From Fibrobacter succinogenes (lineage in GTDB: Bacteria; Fibrobacterota; Fibrobacteria; Fibrobacterales; Fibrobacteraceae), in assembly GCA_902791475.1 (NCBI GenBank), contig CADAWC010000023.1, forward strand, positions 1 to 64,000: a stretch of DNA of 64,000 nucleotides, read 5' to 3'. Below are positions 871 to 10,326 of this stretch, piece by piece. The translations under genes were made by a program, and so were the position numbers. A model generated the notes under the pieces. It was not told the origin of the DNA and ran no database searches. It was given only the letters and a program-made list of their open reading frames with translations. Each line of letters begins with the position of its first letter. Positions within the stretch are counted from its first letter, which is position 1.

Positions 871-886
871 TCTAAGTTCGCTTAGA
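871..886. other. Hairpin with TTCG loop between convergent genes
   Basis: TCTAAG-TTCG-CTTAGA is a perfect 6-bp stem with the very stable TTCG tetraloop. It lies between the convergent stop codons at 863 and 882. There is no following T-run, so a terminator role is only possible, not shown. Confidence 0.4.
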
Positions 887-1685
887 ACATCCATCCAATG
901 GCAAGAACGCTTTCGGCGATGGTCTTATCCAAAAGCCGTGTGCCATATTTGCTTCTGTAAACTTGCGTGCTTTCTTGGAATTTGGGCTTTTGGATGAATG
1001 TCCCGATGTTTATTTCCGTGCTGAAAATGAAATGCTCGTAGCAGTAATTAAAGCCAAAACCAAGAGTGTAATATAGGGCGTATTCTTTTTCTTTAAGGCT
1101 TAGCGCTTGTCTGTAAGAACTTGAATCTCGGTGCAAGTCCACATTGTATAGGACGGGGGCGATTTGTGCCTGGATAAAACCTTCTACCTGACGATTGCTT
1201 TTGTGGTGGTTTTCTCCATTGATGCTCACATAGCTATAGCTGCCGAGGTTTCTGCGCCCCCAATGCCACCTCAATGCAAGTGGAATGGCAAAAGTTTGTA
1301 TGGTTCCTTCGGCATCTGTGTTTTCGCGAATGTCCTTGCTGTTGAATCCGTCATAACCGAATCGCAACGCAAAACTCCAGAAGTTTGCGAATAAGTGCTC
1401 GTAGCTTAAAGAAAAACTTAAACTTTGTGCGACCAAAAGAAGCGTCACTCTGTTTGAATTGTTGGGTGGGGCGCTTAATCCGAATGTGTCTGCAGCTTCC
1501 TCTTGTTGCGGGAGTGCTTCTTGTTGTGTGGATGTTGCGGTATGTTCGGCGCGTTCAGAAGTTGCCTTTGCCGTGTCGATAACGTATGTTACCTTGTGCG
1601 TGTCCGTGTAGACTGTATCTATGATTCGTTCCTGTGAAAACGCGCAAACAACGCAGATGAAAATAAAAGCTAGTGTATGCCGCAT
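882..1685 (-). CDS. Secreted DTVY-motif protein, predicted outer-membrane barrel (third gene of operon)
   Basis: This 267-residue protein has an N-terminal signal peptide (MRHTLAFIFICVVCAFSQ). A short segment follows with DTVY and repeated Asp-Thr spacing (about residues 23-38), then a Thr/Glu/Gln-rich linker. The C-terminal two thirds alternate hydrophobic and polar residues and end in aromatic residues (AIGWMF), as in small outer-membrane beta-barrels. The ATG is separated by one base from the stop of the upstream gene, so the two are probably translationally coupled. The three genes of this operon share the same design: signal peptide, DTVY segment, linker, barrel-like domain. I infer paralogues. 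The function is unknown; a porin-like or surface structural role is one possibility. Confidence 0.75.
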   Translation of the reverse strand: MRHTLAFIFICVVCAFSQERIIDTVYTDTHKVTYVIDTAKATSERAEHTATSTQQEALPQQEEAADTFGLSAPPNNSNRVTLLLVAQSLSFSLSYEHLFANFWSFALRFGYDGFNSKDIRENTDAEGTIQTFAIPLALRWHWGRRNLGSYSYVSINGENHHKSNRQVEGFIQAQIAPVLYNVDLHRDSSSYRQALSLKEKEYALYYTLGFGFNYCYEHFIFSTEINIGTFIQKPKFQESTQVYRSKYGTRLLDKTIAESVLAIGWMF

Positions 1686-1686
1686 A

Positions 1687-2616
1687 TTAGAATCCTATTT
1701 TAGCATCTGTTCCAAAGAACAATCCTTTGGCGCACCATCCATTCATAAAACGGTATGTCATCTTTTCTCGATAAGGATCATGAGTCAGGTATTTCAGGTA
1801 TTTACGAGAATTATCGCCCCAGTATTGATAACCGACAATGAACCCAAATGACCAAAGCATGTTTTCGGCGTTCCAAGCCATGCCCAGTGTGGCGCTTGGG
1901 GCAATGCCGACATCGATACTTCCTTTTTTGGGGTCGGCGCTTTTATATTTCTTGTCGTAGGCTATCTTAAATGCGGGACTTGCCATGGTCTGGATGTAGA
2001 AGGAAATACTGTTTAGCGGAGTGTTCCTGAATTTTACGGGGTGCTTTTTCGGGTTGACTTTAGTTGTTGTAAATGTGAGGTAGTATTGGCGATATCCGAT
2101 ACCTGGGCTAAAGATGCTTCTAAAACCTTCCCATGTGGGGTCGTCACCGGTTCGAGTGTACTCGTAAAAAAGGATGATACTGGATAAATTAAACATGAGC
2201 GAACCTCTGTACGAGTTTTCAATTTCGTAATCGAAGTCAAACATGGGGGCTCCAAACCATATCGAAAACAGGGTAAGACCTGTTGTGGCTCCGATGTAGA
2301 ATTTATTTGCTGGTGGAATGGTGTCGGTGCTGTATTCTGTGATATATTCGTTCTTTAGGGGCTTTGCATTATTCTCTGTTGCGGCATTTGCTTCGGACAT
2401 TTCGTTGTTGTTGTTGTGACTTTCGAAATGCTGAACGTTATCGCTGTTGGCTTGTATACCCGCTTCCTGTATGTAGACGGTGTCTGGTGGAGATACTACG
2501 TAAAGCGTATCCGTGATTCTTTTTTGAACATAGACCGTGTCGGTTATACCCAATGCTGGGCTAATGGCGATGACGAAAAATACAGCAAAAATCAAACTAA
2601 ATCGATTGAACTTCAT
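1687..2616 (-). CDS. Secreted DTVY-motif protein, predicted outer-membrane barrel (second gene of operon)
   Basis: This 309-residue protein starts with a signal peptide (residues 1-23, ending around SPALG) and then carries three DTVY/DTLY motifs in about 30 residues (TDTVYVQKR, DTLYVV, DTVYIQE). An Asn/Glu/Ala-rich linker follows to about residue 95. The rest looks like beta-strands with many Tyr, Phe and Gly (for example YRQYYLTFTTTK) and ends with an aromatic residue (DAKIGF), consistent with an outer-membrane barrel. Its ATG overlaps the upstream stop codon by one base (TAATG). This is a family resemblance seen within the window only; the function is unknown. Confidence 0.75.
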   Translation of the reverse strand: MKFNRFSLIFAVFFVIAISPALGITDTVYVQKRITDTLYVVSPPDTVYIQEAGIQANSDNVQHFESHNNNNEMSEANAATENNAKPLKNEYITEYSTDTIPPANKFYIGATTGLTLFSIWFGAPMFDFDYEIENSYRGSLMFNLSSIILFYEYTRTGDDPTWEGFRSIFSPGIGYRQYYLTFTTTKVNPKKHPVKFRNTPLNSISFYIQTMASPAFKIAYDKKYKSADPKKGSIDVGIAPSATLGMAWNAENMLWSFGFIVGYQYWGDNSRKYLKYLTHDPYREKMTYRFMNGWCAKGLFFGTDAKIGF

Positions 2617-3410
2617 TAGAAAATCCCCACGCCAAAGTTTATTCTGAAGTCAAACTGGATTCCGCCTGTGATGTAGGCAAATTGCTTATTGAGCAGTTCC
2701 TTGTCTGTGAAATTATAAGCTAAACCATATTCAATGCTGAAAATACTGCGGTTCCCTCTAAAAATATGTCCGCTATGTATGTAAGGGGTGTATAAATAGG
2801 CGGTTTCGTGTCTGCTGTGCGGTCTGTCGTTGATGAGGTTTGTGTTGTCCCAGGTGTTGTCGTAGTCGTGTTTGCGGATGAGCCAGTTTCCTCCGATATC
2901 AATAAAGCCACTGTATTTTGATGGTCTAAAATAATGGCGGTAGCCAATACCAATATCGTACTGTGCAATGTAACCATTATAAATATGACTAGATGTTCCC
3001 CAAGGGATTTTTTTACTGTATCGGAAATTCATCATAAAAGAGTTTTTACGATTTCCGGAAATTTCCAAATTCCCGCCAACAGAGGTGAGCGTAGAATCGC
3101 TCATGAGCCAGAGTAACGAAACAATATCAAAGTGCAAATAAATGGTATGGTGTGTGTAGCTTGTGTCGTAACGTAAAAATTTTGTGGTGTCTTCTCCGAG
3201 TGGATTGCGTTCGGTCGGTGCGCAACATTTCGCTTGTAAAAGTTGCTTGGCGACTGTGGTGTTCTTGATGTAAATAGTGTCTGCTTTCGGTTTTATCGGA
3301 ATGTAAACGGTATCGCGGACAATTTGTTCCACAAAAACGGTATCGTGCTTATTTAAATTTGCACAGAATGATGTGGCACAAAGCAGTAGGATTGTTAATA
3401 AAGTTTTCAT
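2616..3410 (-). CDS. Secreted DTVY-motif protein, predicted outer-membrane barrel (first gene of operon)
   Basis: This 264-residue protein begins with a signal peptide (MKTLLTILLLCATSFCA). The motifs HDTVFVEQ, RDTVYIPI and ADTIYIKN follow within residues 22-51. The remainder is aromatic and beta-rich (IYLHFDIVSLLWL, GIGYRHYFRP, FRINFGVGIF), as expected of a small outer-membrane barrel; it closes on Phe. It is the first gene of the three-gene operon. The AT-rich leader on its side runs through 3411-3500 toward the divergent GH8 gene. No Shine-Dalgarno sequence is obvious. The function is unknown. Confidence 0.75.
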   Translation of the reverse strand: MKTLLTILLLCATSFCANLNKHDTVFVEQIVRDTVYIPIKPKADTIYIKNTTVAKQLLQAKCCAPTERNPLGEDTTKFLRYDTSYTHHTIYLHFDIVSLLWLMSDSTLTSVGGNLEISGNRKNSFMMNFRYSKKIPWGTSSHIYNGYIAQYDIGIGYRHYFRPSKYSGFIDIGGNWLIRKHDYDNTWDNTNLINDRPHSRHETAYLYTPYIHSGHIFRGNRSIFSIEYGLAYNFTDKELLNKQFAYITGGIQFDFRINFGVGIF

Positions 3411-3609
3411 TTAACGAAAATATAACAAATGACAAAATCTAATCTAGCTTAGTAGAATTTTTTTTGATAAAGGGTAATATAAGCAGATTGTAATGTGATA
3501 AAAGTTAAATGAATGGTTGCTCGGGTAAACGATATTCTTTTTTTTACTTGCATTTCGAGTATCTAATTTCTAAATATATTCTGGGTTGGAATCGGTGTGT
3601 GGAGGTTTT
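3411..3609. promoter_or_regulatory. Divergent intergenic region
   Basis: About 200 bases of AT-rich sequence separate the minus-strand DTVY operon from the plus-strand GH8 gene, so promoters for both must lie here. No clear operator or sigma consensus was identified. GGAGG at 3601-3605 is the GH8 ribosome-binding site. Confidence 0.5.
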
Positions 3610-5193
3610 ATGTTTTTATCCCGTATTGTGCCGCTCTGCATCGCAACGGCTTTCACCACGTCACTTGCTGTTTTGGACTTGCCAAATGCGCAGCCCAAAG
3701 TCGATGAATCTTATTGGAACAAGGCTCTCGATAGTACTTGGCAAGGCTTAATTCGTCGAAATATCCAGCCGTATAGTGCTGGGGAAGGGCTTATTCATCG
3801 TCCTAAGAGCGAAACTCCGGGCGATGCCGTGAGTGAAGGCGTTGGCTATGGCATGCTTGTTGCGCTTTATTCCAATGACCAGGCTACATTCAATAAAATG
3901 TGGGATGCTGCCAATACGGTCATGTGGGATGGCTGCTATTACAATTGGCAGATGGCTCCGACTGGTAAAATCAGTGGAATGGGGGCTGCCTCCGATGCCG
4001 AAGAAGATGTTGCTCTGGCCTTGATTTTTGCCGATAAGCTTGTTTCTGCGGGCAAGTGGCAACCTTACACTTCAACAAAGTTTGGTTACGATTACAAGAC
4101 GCATGCGCAAAAAATTCTCGATTGCATGTGGGAAACGAAACAGGTTGTCGGGGACGGAATTCTTGCGCCGGGTGCCGGCTGGGGTGGCCGTTCTTTCGTG
4201 AATCCGGGGTATTTTTCTCCGGCTTGGTATAAGGTTTTTGCCAAGTTCGATTCTAATGGCGACCGTTGGAACAGTGTTGTCAACAAGTCCTACGAAATCA
4301 TTGCTCAAAGCCCGGGCTACAGCATGGGTATGGTTCCTGACTGGATGACTCCGGAGGGTGGCTGGGTTGGCTCAGCAGGTCTTGGCTATAATGCCTATTT
4401 CGAAAGCAAGGCTTTCTTTAAGGATGCTATCCGCATTTTGTGGCGTGTCGCTATTGATGCCATCTGGTTTGATGAAGAACGTGCAAAGACGTTCCTCAAG
4501 AACGCTTTGACCTTTATTAATTCTAAAGGTGGCGCAAAGGCAGCAAATTTCTACCAAATCGAAAATGCGGGCGAGCTGTTGCCAGCAGAAGACAAGTGGT
4601 ACGATTTTAACAATTCTAAGGATTCAACGACTTGGCGCTACCGCAGCGAACATAGTCATTTGACGATTGGCATGTGGGCGACTGCAGCGATGGCTGTGGG
4701 CGAGAAGGAAGATCGCATTGCTTTCAGTGAAGAAATGGGCAAATTCTACGAAGGTGGCGATTTCTTTGGTCTTTCAACGGATACGTCGGGCGCTCTCGAA
4801 GATACGCTTCACAATGAAATGTACTTTGACCAGTTCTTGGCCTGGTTTGGAACGTCTATGATGAGCGGAACTTTTGTGAACGTCATCGATGCGATTGACA
4901 ATCCGAAGGCGGCTACGGTTGGGGATTCTTCTTCGCTTACGAAACCTGTTGTTGGAATTGCTGAACATCGCATGGCTCGTGTGGCGGGCATGAAGATTAG
5001 CCATTTGGATGGCGCTGTGATGATGTCCGTTCCCGAAATGGCTCAGTGGAGAATCTTTGACTTGAACGGTCACGTTGTGGCGACTGCCTCTGGTAAAGAT
5101 TTCCTCTGGAAATCCCGTGGTCAAAGCGGAATCTATGTTGTGAAGGCTGTTAGCCGTAAACAAAGTTATTCTCGCAAGATTACTGTTCGCTAA
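3610..5193 (+). CDS. Glycoside hydrolase family 8 endoglucanase/xylanase with C-terminal sorting tail
   Basis: This is a secreted GH8 enzyme, a family of inverting glycanases that cut beta-1,4-glucan or xylan chains. From ATG 3610 (preceded by GGAGG at 3601) it has 527 residues. A longer frame opens at 3586 but lacks a ribosome site and would spoil the signal peptide (MFLSRIVPLCIATAFTTSLA). The GH8 signature SEGVGYGML holds the expected proton donor Glu76, and AASDAEEDVALAL holds the conserved Asp129. The catalytic domain covers about residues 25-430. The last 80 residues form a small beta-sandwich-like tail (WRIFDLNGHVVATA ... GIYVVKAV ... KITVR) that resembles type IX secretion sorting domains. 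The role is presumably plant cell wall breakdown. The exact substrate cannot be read from the sequence. Confidence 0.93.
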   Translation: MFLSRIVPLCIATAFTTSLAVLDLPNAQPKVDESYWNKALDSTWQGLIRRNIQPYSAGEGLIHRPKSETPGDAVSEGVGYGMLVALYSNDQATFNKMWDAANTVMWDGCYYNWQMAPTGKISGMGAASDAEEDVALALIFADKLVSAGKWQPYTSTKFGYDYKTHAQKILDCMWETKQVVGDGILAPGAGWGGRSFVNPGYFSPAWYKVFAKFDSNGDRWNSVVNKSYEIIAQSPGYSMGMVPDWMTPEGGWVGSAGLGYNAYFESKAFFKDAIRILWRVAIDAIWFDEERAKTFLKNALTFINSKGGAKAANFYQIENAGELLPAEDKWYDFNNSKDSTTWRYRSEHSHLTIGMWATAAMAVGEKEDRIAFSEEMGKFYEGGDFFGLSTDTSGALEDTLHNEMYFDQFLAWFGTSMMSGTFVNVIDAIDNPKAATVGDSSSLTKPVVGIAEHRMARVAGMKISHLDGAVMMSVPEMAQWRIFDLNGHVVATASGKDFLWKSRGQSGIYVVKAVSRKQSYSRKITVR

Positions 5194-5198
5194 AGGTG

Positions 5199-5385
5199 AT
5201 GCCCCATCAAGTGGGGCATGACACGTTAGACTTTGCATTCCACTTCGTTGCTTGACTGCTGCGGGTATCAAATGCGAGTCCACAAGTGGCCTCTTGCTTG
5301 ATACCCTTGCATGTCATTCCCGCCTTGAGCGGGCGGACAGCACTTGGAACTTTGTTCCATAGTGCGCATGGCCACCTTTAGGTGG
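5199..5385. repeat. Cluster of REP-like palindromes
   Basis: The spacer after the GH8 gene holds several hairpins: ATGCCCCA-tcaag-TGGGGCAT (5199-5219), GGGTATCAA (5263-5271) paired with TTGATACCC (5298-5306), CCCGC-cttga-GCGGG (5319-5333) and CCACC-ttta-GGTGG (5372-5385). Words such as GTCATTCCCGCC are typical of bacterial REP elements. The first hairpin may also help end GH8 transcription, although no T-run follows. Related palindromes occur at 24733-24750. Confidence 0.65.
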
Positions 5386-5401
5386 GAATCTCCTTTCTAT
5401 T

Positions 5402-6493
5402 CTACGCAGATATTTTTTCAAGCAGTGTATCGCAGATTTCTGCGAGCATTCTTTCGTGCGTGCACACTTCGGGAGACACTCCTTCTATTGTCCCCGTTGT
5501 GTAGTAACTCGTGCAGGCGCATTCATGTGCACAGCAGCGGTAGCGAATATCGCACCCCTCGCATTCTTTTTTGTCGTTGTCCAAAAATTCTCGAATCTTG
5601 TCGCAAGCCGTCTCGTCAAAGCCGGTGAAAACGTTCCCCTGCACATAGTGGGTGTTTGGGTTTGAGGTGATGAACCGTGTGCAAGGGAACATATTTCCAT
5701 TCGTTGCGACACCGATGGCTCCATTGTACACATGGCACGAATAAAGCCTGTATCGCGAATTGATAAGCGTTATTTTGATTTTGTCATGGATTGTGCCGAG
5801 AAAGAACTTTTCACCTTTTTCGCGACACGCTCTCCAGTATTCTGCCATTTTCTGGTATTGCAAGGCAAGTTTGTCAAAATCTTCGCTGCTCCACTTGCCG
5901 TCAAAATCGACACTTGTAGTAAGACTCTGGAAACCTTGGTCGTGCAGCCACTTGACGCTCTCGAAAAGCGTGCTTACGTGTGCGCGCGTGACTGTGCTCA
6001 ATGCTACAGCGCCGAGTTTCACGAATCGCGGAATGTTTGGCTCTATAGCCTTGAAGCTTTCGGTTCCGCTTACAGTGCGTCGGGCGATATCGTGGTGGTG
6101 TTCTGGCCCGTCGAGCGAAAGGTAAATGCGGAATTTTTCACGTTCGCAAAAGTCAAAAAATTCATCGTCGAACAGCGTGCCGTTCGTGTTGACCGCAAAT
6201 TGCAACCTAAAATTTTTTGAAATTTTGCCATTGTCCATCGCGTCATCGACAACCGCCTTTGCGAATTCGACACCTTTGTAAATGGCGTCCCTTCGTAAAA
6301 GAGGTTCCCCTCCGAAAAACGTGATGTTTAAGTACGACTGCCTAAAGAAAATCGTGCGGTCTAGCGCAATTTTAATCGCCTGCTCGAGAGTCGCATCATC
6401 CATGACCGTTTTGCGGTCCGCTTGCGATTCCTTGTAATAGCAGTAAATACAACGTAAATTACATTGTTCTGTAAGGCAAAGGACTAGGTTCAT
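5402..6493 (-). CDS. Radical SAM/SPASM peptide maturase
   Basis: A radical S-adenosylmethionine enzyme that probably modifies a ribosomally made peptide. From ATG 6493 it has 363 residues. The strand before the cluster motif (LVLCLTEQCNLRCIYCYY) gives C-x3-C-x2-C for the radical SAM 4Fe-4S cluster; FFGGEPLL is the usual SAM-binding GGE. The C-terminal third is a SPASM domain with many Cys (CHVYNG, FPCTRF, CEGCDIRYRCC, ECACTSYY, VCTHER) for auxiliary clusters. A TTG at 6535 would add 14 residues and overlap the upstream gene by 26 bases; neither start has a good ribosome site. It follows two Ser-rich paralogues (7811-6510) on the same strand, its likely substrates. From memory it resembles the family called FibroRumin radical SAM maturase; this was not checked. 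Confidence 0.9.
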   Translation of the reverse strand: MNLVLCLTEQCNLRCIYCYYKESQADRKTVMDDATLEQAIKIALDRTIFFRQSYLNITFFGGEPLLRRDAIYKGVEFAKAVVDDAMDNGKISKNFRLQFAVNTNGTLFDDEFFDFCEREKFRIYLSLDGPEHHHDIARRTVSGTESFKAIEPNIPRFVKLGAVALSTVTRAHVSTLFESVKWLHDQGFQSLTTSVDFDGKWSSEDFDKLALQYQKMAEYWRACREKGEKFFLGTIHDKIKITLINSRYRLYSCHVYNGAIGVATNGNMFPCTRFITSNPNTHYVQGNVFTGFDETACDKIREFLDNDKKECEGCDIRYRCCAHECACTSYYTTGTIEGVSPEVCTHERMLAEICDTLLEKISA

Positions 6494-6509
6494 GCGGGAA
6501 ATTTTCTGA

Positions 6510-7193
6510 TTACACTTGAATGTCGCTTTGCTCAAACGTTGTCACCATGCTTTCTATAAGGCAACCTGGATTGTTTGGGTCTTCGCACAGGTGGATACGG
6601 GGGTTGAGAGTGTCTATGACAGGTGTAATCTGTGGGACGGGGACTTTGATATCGCTGCTACTAGATTGTGCATCAGGCGTACTTTCGCTCGAGCTACTTT
6701 CTTGGATAATAGGGTCGCCAGCGAGAGGTTCGGGCTCTACTATGGAACTGCTTGACAGCGTTTCGCTTGAGGAAGATTCTTCGTACGGTGGGAGAATGCC
6801 TGCTTCTGGGGGCTGCTCCATTGAAGAGCTACTTGGCTTTTCGACGGATGATGAAGAAATGATCATCGGGATGCCGGATAGGGGCTCAATCGAGGAACTG
6901 CTACGGGGCTGCGACGCCGACGAAAGCGCTTCGATGGCTTCGCTGCTGAGATGCTCGCCACTTGAAGAAATGTCGGTATAGCTAGAACTGCTGTGTTGTT
7001 CTCCGCATGCAGCCTGTCCGCATGTGGGGTTTGTTTCGGGCTGCTTGGGGTGGTCTCCGCCAATTGCAGACACGCTGTCATCGCAGGCTGTGGTCCCGAA
7101 GGATGCCGCAATTCCGAGTGCGGCTGCGACTGCGCTTTTAGCAAAATGGTTCAATTTTGAACTTTTAATGACTTTTTTCTTCTCGATTTTCAT
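6510..7193 (-). CDS. Ser-rich lipoprotein-like protein, likely maturase substrate (paralogue B)
   Basis: 227 residues from ATG 7193, which has AGGGGG just upstream; an earlier ATG at 7208 lacks this. The N-terminus is MKIEKKK followed by a basic stretch, a hydrophobic segment (SAVAAALGIAASFGTTAC) and a lipobox-like TTAC. The body is poly-Ser runs alternating with Pro/Glu/Ile-rich spacers (GIPMIISSSS, GILPPYEESSSS, LAGDPIIQESSSS). The last 35 residues are less biased and hold two Cys (HLCEDPNNPGCLIESMVTTFEQ). It shares the MKIEKKKV start, LSSEAIEALSS and the SMV(T/S)T(F/Y)E end with the upstream paralogue. The stop lies 16 bases before the maturase ATG. The role as substrate is inferred from position. 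Confidence 0.8.
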   Translation of the reverse strand: MKIEKKKVIKSSKLNHFAKSAVAAALGIAASFGTTACDDSVSAIGGDHPKQPETNPTCGQAACGEQHSSSSYTDISSSGEHLSSEAIEALSSASQPRSSSSIEPLSGIPMIISSSSVEKPSSSSMEQPPEAGILPPYEESSSSETLSSSSIVEPEPLAGDPIIQESSSSESTPDAQSSSSDIKVPVPQITPVIDTLNPRIHLCEDPNNPGCLIESMVTTFEQSDIQV

Positions 7194-7217
7194 GGTTCCC
7201 CCTAACACTTGCAGATC

Positions 7218-7811
7218 TTATACATTGTCAAACATTTCGTATGTGGAAACCATGCTTACTAACGGGAAATCATCGTCGTCATGGCACATAATGACGTTGA
7301 CGCCCATGGAATCAATTTTGTTGCAATCTGTTGGCCATGGACCGATAACAGTATCATTTGAAGAACTGCTGGATTCTTCTTTAACACTCGATGAACTGCG
7401 GGGCTTTTCCACAAATGTGCTGCTGGAGCTTTCGGACGAGCTGCTGACGGCTTTTTCTGAGGAGCTAATGGGCGTTTCTGAAGAAGAACTGGCGAGATTT
7501 TCTGAAGAACTGCTCGGCGTTTGTACAGATGAAGACGAAAGCGCTTCGATGGCTTCGCTGCTGAGACGTTCGTGACTCAGCGGAATATCGACTACAGAAG
7601 AACTGGACTGTATTTCCGGGGTTTCGGAATCGTCGCTACTGTTTGGGTTATTGTTGTCTGGTTCAACTGGGCCGACAACTTGACCGCTTTCGGCGTCGCC
7701 TGTACAACCACTCATCAAAATTGCGGACATGCCAAGCAACGAGGCGACCCCAGCTTTGGTGGCGCTCGACAAACGTGAATTACCGGTAACTTTCTTCTTC
7801 TCGATTTTCAT
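7218..7811 (-). CDS. Ser-rich lipoprotein-like protein, likely maturase substrate (paralogue A)
   Basis: 197 residues from ATG 7811, preceded by GAAGGAG; an ATG at 7835 is in frame but has no such site. It begins MKIEKKKV, has a hydrophobic segment (AGVASLLGMSAILMSGC) ending in a lipobox-like MSGC, then an acidic Asn/Asp region and long poly-Ser tracts. The C-terminal part without Ser bias reads DCNKIDSMGVNVIMC, HDDDD, then SMVSTYEMFDNV. The last part matches the end of paralogue B, so the conserved C-terminus may be the modified or recognised core. It is the first gene of the three-gene cassette, 24 bases before paralogue B. It could instead simply be a cell-surface lipoprotein. Confidence 0.8.
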   Translation of the reverse strand: MKIEKKKVTGNSRLSSATKAGVASLLGMSAILMSGCTGDAESGQVVGPVEPDNNNPNSSDDSETPEIQSSSSVVDIPLSHERLSSEAIEALSSSSVQTPSSSSENLASSSSETPISSSEKAVSSSSESSSSTFVEKPRSSSSVKEESSSSSNDTVIGPWPTDCNKIDSMGVNVIMCHDDDDFPLVSMVSTYEMFDNV

Positions 7812-7938
7812 AAAAATCTCCTTCAACCATAACACTCCACTTTAATATAGTTTGTTTTGGAATATAAAGTGTAATTTGGGGCCTTTTTTTTGATTGGCGC
7901 TGAACGTTTTTGTTGCATCCGTTGCATATAGGCTTCTT

Positions 7939-8094
7939 GAGTTACGAGTTTAGAGTTACTAGTTACTAGATTGCTCAAATTATGCCGTGTTTTGTTGGAT
8001 GAAAAAAAACGCCCGGTTTCCCGAGCGTCTTTTGTAATTAAGTTCTCTTAACTAGTAACTATTAACTAATAACTAGTAACTGCGACGAAGTCGC
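7939..8094. repeat. TAACTAGTAAC-type arrays with GC mini-hairpin
   Basis: Two short arrays of GTTACTAGTTACTA/TAACTAGTAACTA words (about 7939-7971 and 8046-8081) flank the ilvBH terminator. The second array runs directly into GCGAC-GAA-GTCGC (8082-8094), a 5-bp stem with a three-base loop, four bases before the ilvH stop codon. This array-plus-hairpin design recurs at 11208, 12708, 19521 and 41952. Confidence 0.7.
8002..8033 (-). terminator. Rho-independent terminator of ilvBH
   Basis: Read on the minus strand, ACGCTCGG-GAAA-CCGGGCGT forms an 8-bp stem with one G-T pair and a GAAA tetraloop, followed by a run of T. It lies 65 bases downstream of the ilvH stop. Confidence 0.8.
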
Positions 8095-8097
8095 GAA

Positions 8098-8592
8098 CTA
8101 AGTCTTGTCTTCACCGCGGAGCATGATGACCTTGCCCGTGCGGATGTATTCCACGATTTCGAACTTCTGCAACAAGCTCTTGAGGGTATCGACCTTCTGG
8201 CTGTTGCCCGTAATCTGGATAATCATGGAAGTCATCGTCATATCCACCGTGTTGGCGTGGAAATGGTCGCAAAGCTGCAAGATTTCGGTGCGCTGTTCTG
8301 CTGTGCAACGAACCTTGATGAGGGCGAGTTCCTTTTCCACGGCGTCCGTACCGGTATGGTCCTTGGCCTGTACCACGTCCACGAGCTTCTCGAGCTGCTT
8401 GATGATCTGCATCAAGATCTCGGGATTGCCGTGAGCGATGATGTTCATGCGGCTGAAGTTCGGGTCGAGCGTGGGGGAGACGACGAGAGAATCGATGTTG
8501 TAGCCACGGCGGGAGAACACGAGTGCAATACGCACGAGCACGCCCGGGCGGTTTGCCACTAACAAGCTAATAGAATGTGCAATATCTTTCAT
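8098..8592 (-). CDS. ilvH: Acetolactate synthase small (regulatory) subunit
   Basis: This 164-residue protein matches the usual length of IlvH/IlvN, which binds the large subunit and mediates valine feedback in branched-chain amino acid synthesis. The N-terminal ACT domain (about residues 4-78) contains ISLLVANRPGVLVRIALVFSRRGYNIDSL, the family signature. The C-terminal domain (about 85-158) includes LALIKVRC and a predicted strand-helix fold (MTSMIIQITGNSQKVDTL). It follows ilvB by 15 bases, with AGGAG as ribosome site. The two genes should be co-transcribed and end at the terminator at 8002-8033. Confidence 0.96.
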   Translation of the reverse strand: MKDIAHSISLLVANRPGVLVRIALVFSRRGYNIDSLVVSPTLDPNFSRMNIIAHGNPEILMQIIKQLEKLVDVVQAKDHTGTDAVEKELALIKVRCTAEQRTEILQLCDHFHANTVDMTMTSMIIQITGNSQKVDTLKSLLQKFEIVEYIRTGKVIMLRGEDKT

Positions 8593-8607
8593 TTTCTAAT
8601 TCTCCTA

Positions 8608-10326
8608 TTACGTCGATCCGGTGGGTTTTTCGAGCTGCGTCTTCGGCTGTTCGGTGATCATGCTTGTGATCGGAGCGCCTGCCGGAATCATCGGGAACAC
8701 GTTGTCTTCCTTTTCGCATTCGCAGTGGATGAGGATCGGGCCGTCGTTGTAGTCCAAAGCCTTCTGGATCACGCGTTCAGCATCGGCCGGGCGCTTGATA
8801 CGGAGACCCGGGATGCCGTAAGCTTCAGCGAGCTTCACGAAGTCCGGGTTGCCTTTCATGTCCACGCTGGAGTAGCGGTGGTCATAGAAGAGTTCCTGCC
8901 ACTGGCGCACCATGCCGAGGTACTTGTTGTCCATCACGAAAATCTTGATGGGGAGCTTGTGGATGGCTGCCGTTGCAAGTTCTGCTTCGGTCATCTGGAA
9001 ACCTCCGTCACCGCTGAAGCTGCAAACCGGCCAGCCGGTTTCGTTGCCGAATGCGGCACCGATAGCAGCCGGGAAGCCAAAGCCCATCGTGCCTGCGCCA
9101 CCGCTGGAGTGGAGCTGACGCGGATAGTTGATGTGGAAGAACTGTGCAACCCACATCTGGTGCTGGCCCACGTCTGTCGTGACAATTGCCTTGCCCTGGG
9201 TGAGTTCGCTCACGGTAGCAATGATGTGCTGCATACGGAGGCCGCCCTGCTTGGCGTAGGTGAGCGGGTAGCGCTTCTTCCAGGTCTGGCAAGTCTTGAT
9301 CCAGTCGGCGGTATCGAGCTTGTTCACCATCGGGAGGAGCTGTTCCAAGACGAGCTTGGCGTCACCGCACATGAACACATCCGGCTGCAACACCTTGCCT
9401 TCTTCGGCAGGGTCGATGTCGATGTGCATCTTCACGGCGTTCTTGCAGAATTCGCTGAGCTTACCGGTAATGCGGTCGTCCCAACGGCTACCGATCGAAA
9501 GGATCAAGTCGCATTCGAGAACAGCCTTGTTGGCGTAAATTGTACCGTGCATGCCGAGCATGCCGAGCGAAAGTTCATGGTCGGTCGGGAATGCGCCGAG
9601 GCCAAGCATCGTGCAGCAAACCGGAGCACCGAGCTTTTCGGCAAGTTCCTTCACCTGGCGGTGTGCGCCAGAAATCATGGCGCCGTGGCCCACGAGCAAA
9701 AGCGGCTTCTTGGAATTCTTGAGGTATTCGGCGGCCTTTTCAACGCTTTCTGTAGAAGCATAGGTCGGAATCTTGTAACCCGGAAGGTCCATCTGATCCG
9801 TGAACGGAGCGGTGCAGGGGCCTGCAGTCACGTCCTTCGGGAGGTCAATAAGCACCGGACCCGGACGGCCTGTACGTGCAATGTGGAAAGCTTCCTTCAT
9901 CACGCGCGGGAGGTCATTCGTGTCTTTCACCAAGTAAGAATGCTTGACGGTTGCAAAAGTCATACCGCTCGTATCGCATTCCTGGAAAGCGTCCTTGCCC
10001 AAGTTCGGAGTCGTCGTCTGTGCCGTGAGCACGACGATAGGGCTAGAATCCATGAGAGCTGTATAAATACCTGTAAACGTGTTCGTTGCACCCGGACCGC
10101 TAGTGACAAGAGCTACACCGACCTTACCGGTCTGGCGGGCATAACCGTCAGCCATGTGGGTTGCACCCTGTTCATGACGGCTGAGCACAACTTTGATGCT
10201 GGAGTCGAGGATGGCATCGAACATCGGAATGGCCGATCCACCGGGATAGCCGAAAATTGTGTCGACGCCTTCACGCTTGAGGCATTCGATAATCACTTCG
10301 GCACCACTTAAGGTCTTATTTGCCAT
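8608..10326 (-). CDS. ilvB: Acetolactate synthase large (catalytic) subunit
   Basis: A 572-residue ThDP-dependent enzyme that condenses pyruvate to acetolactate, or pyruvate with 2-ketobutyrate, the first common step to valine, leucine and isoleucine. The N-terminal domain has GYPGGSAIPMFDAI and RHEQGATHMADGYAR with the conserved catalytic Glu. The central FAD-related domain runs from about residue 190 to 330. The C-terminal ThDP-binding motif is GDGGFQMTEAELATA to MDNKYLGMVRQWQ. Length and motifs are standard. ATG 10326 is preceded by AGGAT. An AT-rich leader precedes it; no leader peptide rich in branched-chain residues was found. Confidence 0.97.
   Translation of the reverse strand: MANKTLSGAEVIIECLKREGVDTIFGYPGGSAIPMFDAILDSSIKVVLSRHEQGATHMADGYARQTGKVGVALVTSGPGATNTFTGIYTALMDSSPIVVLTAQTTTPNLGKDAFQECDTSGMTFATVKHSYLVKDTNDLPRVMKEAFHIARTGRPGPVLIDLPKDVTAGPCTAPFTDQMDLPGYKIPTYASTESVEKAAEYLKNSKKPLLLVGHGAMISGAHRQVKELAEKLGAPVCCTMLGLGAFPTDHELSLGMLGMHGTIYANKAVLECDLILSIGSRWDDRITGKLSEFCKNAVKMHIDIDPAEEGKVLQPDVFMCGDAKLVLEQLLPMVNKLDTADWIKTCQTWKKRYPLTYAKQGGLRMQHIIATVSELTQGKAIVTTDVGQHQMWVAQFFHINYPRQLHSSGGAGTMGFGFPAAIGAAFGNETGWPVCSFSGDGGFQMTEAELATAAIHKLPIKIFVMDNKYLGMVRQWQELFYDHRYSSVDMKGNPDFVKLAEAYGIPGLRIKRPADAERVIQKALDYNDGPILIHCECEKEDNVFPMIPAGAPITSMITEQPKTQLEKPTGST

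Follow-up and report, generated by a model that had tools for sequence, protein, structure and literature searches.

A Fibrobacteraceae family of radical SAM/SPASM enzymes encoded beside Ser-rich lipoprotein-like or Lys-rich partner proteins

Organization of the locus

The DNA analysed here, referred to below as the window, is a stretch of 64,000 nucleotides from a Fibrobacter succinogenes contig (CADAWC010000023.1, assembly GCA_902791475.1). Fibrobacter are gut bacteria and important degraders of plant fibre in the rumen. An earlier note on this DNA had described two paralogous, Ser-rich proteins with lipobox-like signals, encoded directly ahead of a radical SAM gene on the same strand. The ORFs and translations of the window confirm this arrangement: presumed substrate 2, presumed substrate 1 and the enzyme follow one another in this order of transcription (Table 1), with 24 bases (7194-7217) between the lipoprotein genes and 16 bases (6494-6509) before the enzyme gene. 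The latter is taken to start at ATG 6493, because homologues align from this codon; the mechanical ORF would begin at TTG 6535.

The paralogy of the two presumed substrates is visible in their common MKIEKKKV start. Their mechanical ORFs (232 and 205 aa) contain 22% and 25% Ser, and lipobox-like sites are found at TTAC (Cys37) in substrate 1 and MSGC (Cys36) in substrate 2. Their strongest feature is a common C-terminal tail, C-x-D ... SMV[ST]T[FY]E. Substrate 1, the paralogue nearest the enzyme, also bears the motifs PLSGIP, EAGILPP and PLAGDP.

Table 1. Genes and sequence features of the cassette (window coordinates)
Feature	Position	Strand	Basis or remark
Radical SAM/SPASM maturase, 363 aa	5402..6493	-	CxxxCxxC at residues 11-18; 8 invariant C-terminal cysteines; radical SAM domain not preceded by an N-terminal extension
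Presumed substrate 1, Ser-rich, lipoprotein-like, 227 aa	6510..7193	-	
Presumed substrate 2, Ser-rich, lipoprotein-like, 197 aa, paralogue of substrate 1	7218..7811	-	
Substrate 1 leader/signal region, MKIEKKKV...TTAC, residues 1-37	7083..7193	-	Leader profile A3, E 7.2e-17
Substrate 2 leader/signal region, MKIEKKKV...MSGC, residues 1-36	7704..7811	-	Leader profile A3, E 2.2e-18
Substrate 1 C-terminal tail, CEDPNNPGCLIESMVTTFEQSDIQV	6513..6587	-	Tail alignment; DNA pattern
Substrate 2 C-terminal tail, CNKIDSMGVNVIMCHDDDDFPLVSMVSTYEMFDNV	7221..7325	-	Tail alignment; DNA pattern
Substrate 1 Gly motif, PLSGIPMI	6861..6884	-	Enrichment at family level
Substrate 1 Gly motif, PPEAGILPP	6786..6812	-	Sequence reading; enrichment at family level
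Substrate 1 Gly motif, PLAGDPII	6705..6728	-	Motif scans; enrichment at family level

Genes named from their sequence as ilvB and ilvH lie upstream on the same strand, and ilvH is likewise upstream of 40 of the 49 enzymes of the window clade defined below. Reading of the ORFs of 3586-10326 by eye recognised no adjacent transporter or protease gene, as the earlier note had stated. Promoter and terminator scans of 5190-8100 returned 0 and 3 sites, respectively, none above shuffles. Convergent with the cassette, 3586-5193 (plus strand) encodes a family 8 glycosyl hydrolase (PF01270, 109.5 bits) ending in a T9SS-type sorting domain (TIGR04183, 25.1 bits, cut-off 23). Farther on, 882-3410 (minus strand) holds three tandem ORFs (267, 309 and 264 aa). 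They start like signal sequences, contain a DTVYV/DTVYI stretch and end in tails resembling beta-barrels; no Pfam model rose above its cut-off for them.

The enzyme

The enzyme matches Pfam PF04055 (Radical_SAM) with 59.2 bits (cut-off 29.5). The Pfam SPASM model scores 16.8, below its cut-off of 21.5, but eight C-terminal cysteines (C253, C271, C311, C314, C320, C325, C327 and C344) are invariant in 62 aligned enzymes, which bears out the radical SAM/SPASM assignment of the earlier note. C11, C15 and C18 of the CxxxCxxC motif are also invariant in the 62; the Fe-S cysteines are thus intact. In the NCBIfam search that had been suggested for this maturase, none of the models shown has its cut-off reached. 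PapB (NF047865) comes top with 203.6 bits against 340, and is followed by nif11-type, quinohemoprotein-type and SCIFF maturases, all far under cut-off. The predicted structure (pLDDT 94.3) matches known folds along its whole length, with Z scores of 36.5 for CteB, 32.5 for ChlB, 31.8 for anSME and 27.1 for TigE. CxxxCxxC, SPASM cysteines and a matching fold, the marks of the broad class of radical SAM/SPASM maturases, are all present.

Two other possibilities were set aside. An anti-phage defence role was considered, but the enzyme met just weak viperin models (best 46.2 bits), read as the common radical SAM core, and the two lipoproteins had zero matches to anti-phage defence models. Apparent in-frame TGA codons in two homologues (G057 and G059) precede the true start, and the profile search gives both genes free of stops.

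Occurrence and partner types

Homologues were detected in 64 of 111 Fibrobacteraceae genomes by single-sequence search (E 1e-20). A profile search of 167 genomes of the phylum (E 1e-60) gave the same number of positive genomes, all within Fibrobacteraceae, and no homologue at this strength in the 56 other genomes of the phylum. Some genomes hold as many as four enzyme copies. There are 117 homologue places in total (two 30%-identity fragments in L106 and L108 were dropped from the 115 tblastn rows), and neighbourhoods were examined at 113 of them, leaving out G092:C3, G095:C105 and two in G095:C14. An adjacent precursor-like gene is conserved at all 113.

The partners, which change rapidly, fall into three broad kinds. 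The 49 genes of the window clade (67-100% identity) are all preceded by one to four Ser-rich tail proteins. A second set of 30 genes (44-58% identity) is in every case preceded by a leader-bearing Ser-rich or Ser/Thr-rich protein without the tail; 28 of these were found by the Ser rule within 90 bases, and L066 and L124 were added by individual reading. In a subgroup of four, the partner ends in SM-x-[ST]-xx-GHI-x-IP. The third set (34 genes, 45-57% identity) has no Ser-rich protein directly upstream; instead, a Lys/Arg-rich protein is encoded 11-64 bases downstream in 34/34. The same downstream rule is satisfied by 0/30 genes of the second kind and 3/49 of the window clade, those three being a flavodoxin-like protein. 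The Lys-rich partners (69-183 aa, 16-27% Lys/Arg) form several families without mutual sequence likeness. Since all 34 enzymes of this kind have such a downstream protein, they appear to be paired with another type of precursor and not to be solitary.

Fast-changing Lys-rich proteins with histone-tail-like starts are found at L102, L104, L105, L113, L115, L122 and other B-type loci, and many loci of the third kind adjoin hemB/hemL or purF, as named from sequence. A structure model of the Lys-rich partner A2 places its Gly motif between two helices, but the mean pLDDT of 67.7 is too low for the model to be used as support. A Pfam search of ten partner proteins returned none over cut-off. At L109, a 668-aa ORF upstream of the enzyme has a long Ser linker and two similar domains with MAENLNF repeats; the cassette is therefore not the only place where Ser-rich linkers occur in these bacteria. 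Two chance ORFs were taken out of the partner sets by hand.

Partner type is predictable from the enzyme tree. This tree comprises 62 of 111 usable sequences after near-copy thinning (L120, which has no full reading frame, was excluded). Five partner types correspond to five groups with 4 changes, the minimum, against a mean of 28.4 for shuffled labels; the labels were assigned by hand, by identity above 66% for the window clade and from hand lists for the other groups, so that the rules are partly identity-based.

The dedicated cassette of enzyme and presumed Ser-rich substrates proposed in the earlier note is supported for the window clade, where the tail protein is always upstream; for the wider family it has to be modified, 34 of the 113 homologues having the downstream Lys-rich protein in place of a Ser-rich neighbour.

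C-terminal tail

The distribution of the tail was followed with a degenerate DNA pattern for SMV[ST]T[FY][DE], counts and adjacency being read from the match listing against homologue positions. Of 85 matches in 111 genomes, 82 adjoin window-clade enzymes and 3 lie elsewhere (G012, G037:C122 and G103); the backwards pattern gives 3 matches in the same genomes. The tail alignment shows a near-constant Cys ahead of SMV. C-x-[DE] is found in 78 of 94 window-clade partners (shuffle mean 38.8, maximum 51), and at least two Cys follow residue 50 in all 93 scored tails, one of the 94 partners having no scorable tail. CX3D was tried as a core and rejected, C...[DE] occurring in 42/94 partners for a shuffle mean of 38.2. 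A loose tail rule also gave chance matches (L087 up3634, L098 and L111), which were not counted as partners.

Leader and Gly motif

The Ser-rich proteins of the first two kinds share a leader, M-x-I-x-K-x-K-V ... LAA-x-LG ... C. Its lipobox Cys is at median residue 37, and a lipobox-like site is present in 89/94 window-clade and 34/35 tail-less proteins. In the 42-residue leader profile, M1, I3, G27 and C36 are invariant in 35 sequences. The profile finds matches in 68 of 80 genomes of the genus at E 0.01; in the window's own genome, the strong matches are just the two window proteins. The Lys-rich partners have no such leader; therefore, leader recognition cannot be general.

The leader is also borne by proteins encoded away from the enzyme. 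Twenty such places, chosen for reading among the leader-profile matches (further ones exist), encode proteins of 81-168 aa, and no radical SAM gene was seen near them within stretches of 5-10 kb. The genomes of 19 have an enzyme homologue, and G024 (84% complete) is without a detected one. The earlier expectation that the Ser-rich proteins would stay with a radical SAM gene largely stands for the tail and gives way for these leader-bearing relatives. These small proteins (L224-L243, e.g., L226, L230, L233 and L242) carry motifs such as PLGGIV, TAGIP and LAGDV, and several of them lack a lipobox Cys. It is possible that they are substrates in trans.

The partners carry the N-terminal leader, a Gly motif, or both. 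The form [AG]-G-[ILMVDE]-[PIVLM] occurs in 19/20 tail-less Ser-rich proteins (shuffle mean 2.0), 17/20 distant leader proteins (1.0) and 15/39 window-clade proteins (2.3), in deduplicated sets that retain relatives and with short motifs discovered on the same data. In the Lys-rich set it is not clearly enriched (6/30, mean 3.0, reached by 64 of 1000 shuffles). The form [LI].G.[PIV], derived from the Ser-rich set and then applied to the Lys-rich one, is found there in 18/30 (shuffle mean 4.4, reached by 0 of 1000 shuffles), and an alignment of nine divergent Lys-rich proteins is fully constant only at Met1 and at the I and G of IxG. This form has no match in substrate 2 of the window. By protein count, loose forms of the motif are not enriched in the window clade. 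G.[PIV] and [AP].?G..P were also tried and show no enrichment there. Reversed sequences exceed shuffles in some sets (e.g., 8/20); part of the Gly-motif signal is therefore local clustering of G and P. The z-scores of a first motif scan were not used, because sets that still hold relatives make them too high.

Proposed maturation system and alternatives

The agreement between enzyme clade and partner type and the near confinement of the tail to its clade argue for a dedicated enzyme-substrate pair, and it is probable that the partner proteins are chemically altered by the enzyme. We consider it reasonably likely that the locus belongs to a Fibrobacteraceae-specific, RiPP-like protein-maturation system, with the Ser-rich lipoproteins as substrates and the Gly motifs, together with the tail, as sites. 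The two lipoproteins would be synthesized in the cytoplasm, where the conserved Lys-rich start MKIEKKKV..., a long n-region of the signal sequence, would serve as leader. The enzyme, which has no RRE of its own, would modify short core motifs in the unfolded chain. From the sequence comparisons, the shared Gly motif [AG]-G-[ILMVDE]-[PIVLM] appears to be the best candidate site; in the window clade, the Cys/SMVTTFE tail may be a second or replacing one. Sec export, lipidation at Cys36/37 and display on a flexible Ser-rich stalk would follow; the surface anchor or appendage mentioned in the earlier note is a conceivable product. Export and lipidation by the general Sec and lipoprotein machinery of the cell would be consistent with the export-type leaders and with the lack of a recognised transporter or protease gene nearby. 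Related enzymes would treat tail-less Ser-rich lipoproteins and the cytoplasmic Lys-rich proteins of the adjoining downstream genes in the same way; leader-bearing proteins from other parts of the genome are perhaps further substrates, reached in trans. Of the two elements of a RiPP precursor, the leader is present in Ser-rich and distant proteins and absent from Lys-rich ones, and the variable core is a presumed one throughout.

As to the chemistry, Cys is absent from 23 of 34 Lys-rich partners and occurs once in the other 11, and 21 of 35 tail-less Ser-rich partners have none after residue 45. With 0-1 core Cys in most partners outside the window clade, the family-wide reaction is probably not a Cys thioether, and a general reaction of this kind seems unlikely from the partner sequences. 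More tentatively, one enzyme family may install an undescribed, Cys-independent modification at Gly motifs of unrelated scaffolds (Ser-rich lipoproteins, distant signal-peptide proteins and cytoplasmic Lys-rich proteins), with the signal sequence as leader, the window clade having added a second, Cys-containing C-terminal core.

The chief rival is confined to the window clade, and we hold it to be rather unlikely. There, the enzyme would be a thioether maturase of ranthipeptide or sactipeptide type linking the conserved tail Cys to another residue, e.g., to the Asp of C-x-D or to one within SMVTTFE, and the Gly motifs would be only linkers. The closest families are or include thioether formers (PapB, and the SCIFF maturase at 130 bits), the closest solved structure is that of CteB, and the paired tail cysteines and C-x-[DE] described above would suit such a bond. 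However, the CX3D motif of PapB is not enriched, and a plain disulfide, formed once the protein is exported, might account for the two tail Cys. The cysteine counts of the other partners mean that thioether formation cannot be the chemistry of the whole family.

That the neighbours are not substrates at all is improbable. The true substrate would then be a small molecule or a protein encoded at an unlinked site, and the neighbours would serve as partners or inhibitors or be chance passengers; modification of the neighbours is indeed deduced, and leader proteins do occur far from the enzyme. Yet all 113 genes examined have a typed neighbour whose type tracks the enzyme tree, and the nearest NCBIfam families act on peptides or proteins. 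It is very doubtful that the enzyme resembles anSME in converting Ser or Cys oxidatively to formylglycine in an unfolded protein destined for export: the lack of an RRE, whole-protein substrates and the fold match would agree with this, but the PCD of anSME is PCT here, C271 and R273 being invariant in 62, and TIGR03942 gives 91.5 bits against a cut-off of 349.45. Finally, the earlier note had mentioned FibroRumin maturases. A system of this type would share the host group, by name alone, since the name points to Fibrobacter; with TIGR04136 at 37.9 bits against a cut-off of 400, its probability is negligible and the suggestion can be abandoned. The name FibroRumin was in no paper of the literature searched.

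Known radical SAM/SPASM maturases mostly modify short peptides. What would be new here is a radical SAM/SPASM maturation system with protein-sized partners: a lineage-wide family tied to lipid-anchored or Lys-rich proteins of several unrelated designs, the design being predicted by the enzyme tree. If the more tentative reading of a Cys-independent modification is true, surface lipoproteins would undergo a maturation like that of natural-product peptides. The window offers a compact testable set (one enzyme, two partners and two candidate cores) in which a new protein modification, possibly with a role at the cell surface, could be sought, and the family allows a comparison of how enzymes of this kind select substrates when they have no RRE. 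Within the literature searched, the system is not described. The Fibrobacteres row in PMC4289311 holds no RiPP class. In another study, radical SAM genes of S85, which may or may not include a counterpart of the present one, change with pH (PMC5442110).

Comparison with known systems

PapB is the top-scoring family for the window enzyme, and each of the 62 aligned enzymes matches it with E 1e-20 or lower; both have a radical SAM core and a SPASM domain, and PapB works with a dedicated precursor, PapA (PMC9413430), like the present pairing. The enzyme nevertheless scores under the PapB cut-off, and CX3D (or CX3E) is not enriched in its partners, which at 69-300 aa are lipoprotein-like or Lys-rich proteins instead of short peptides.

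CteB, the SCIFF maturase (TIGR03974), is the nearest solved structure (PDB 5wgg, 5why; rmsd 2.7 over 337 residues, 26% identity). The present enzyme aligns from CteB residue 94 onward, however, and lacks the N-terminal part, which in CteB holds the RRE; the TIGR03974 score of 130 bits compares with a cut-off of 425, and there is no small six-Cys peptide here. anSME (TIGR03942; PDB 4k36-4k39; 21% identity) likewise lacks an RRE, and its substrate is an entire exported protein, modified at a short motif. The system proposed here would be similar in outline, but PCDFY of anSME aligns with PCTRF, so that Thr stands in place of the Asp right after the auxiliary-cluster Cys, the catalytic base of anSME. 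By the tests made, the enzyme belongs to neither the PapB nor the CteB family, nor to that of anSME, and it is built like PapB and CteB.
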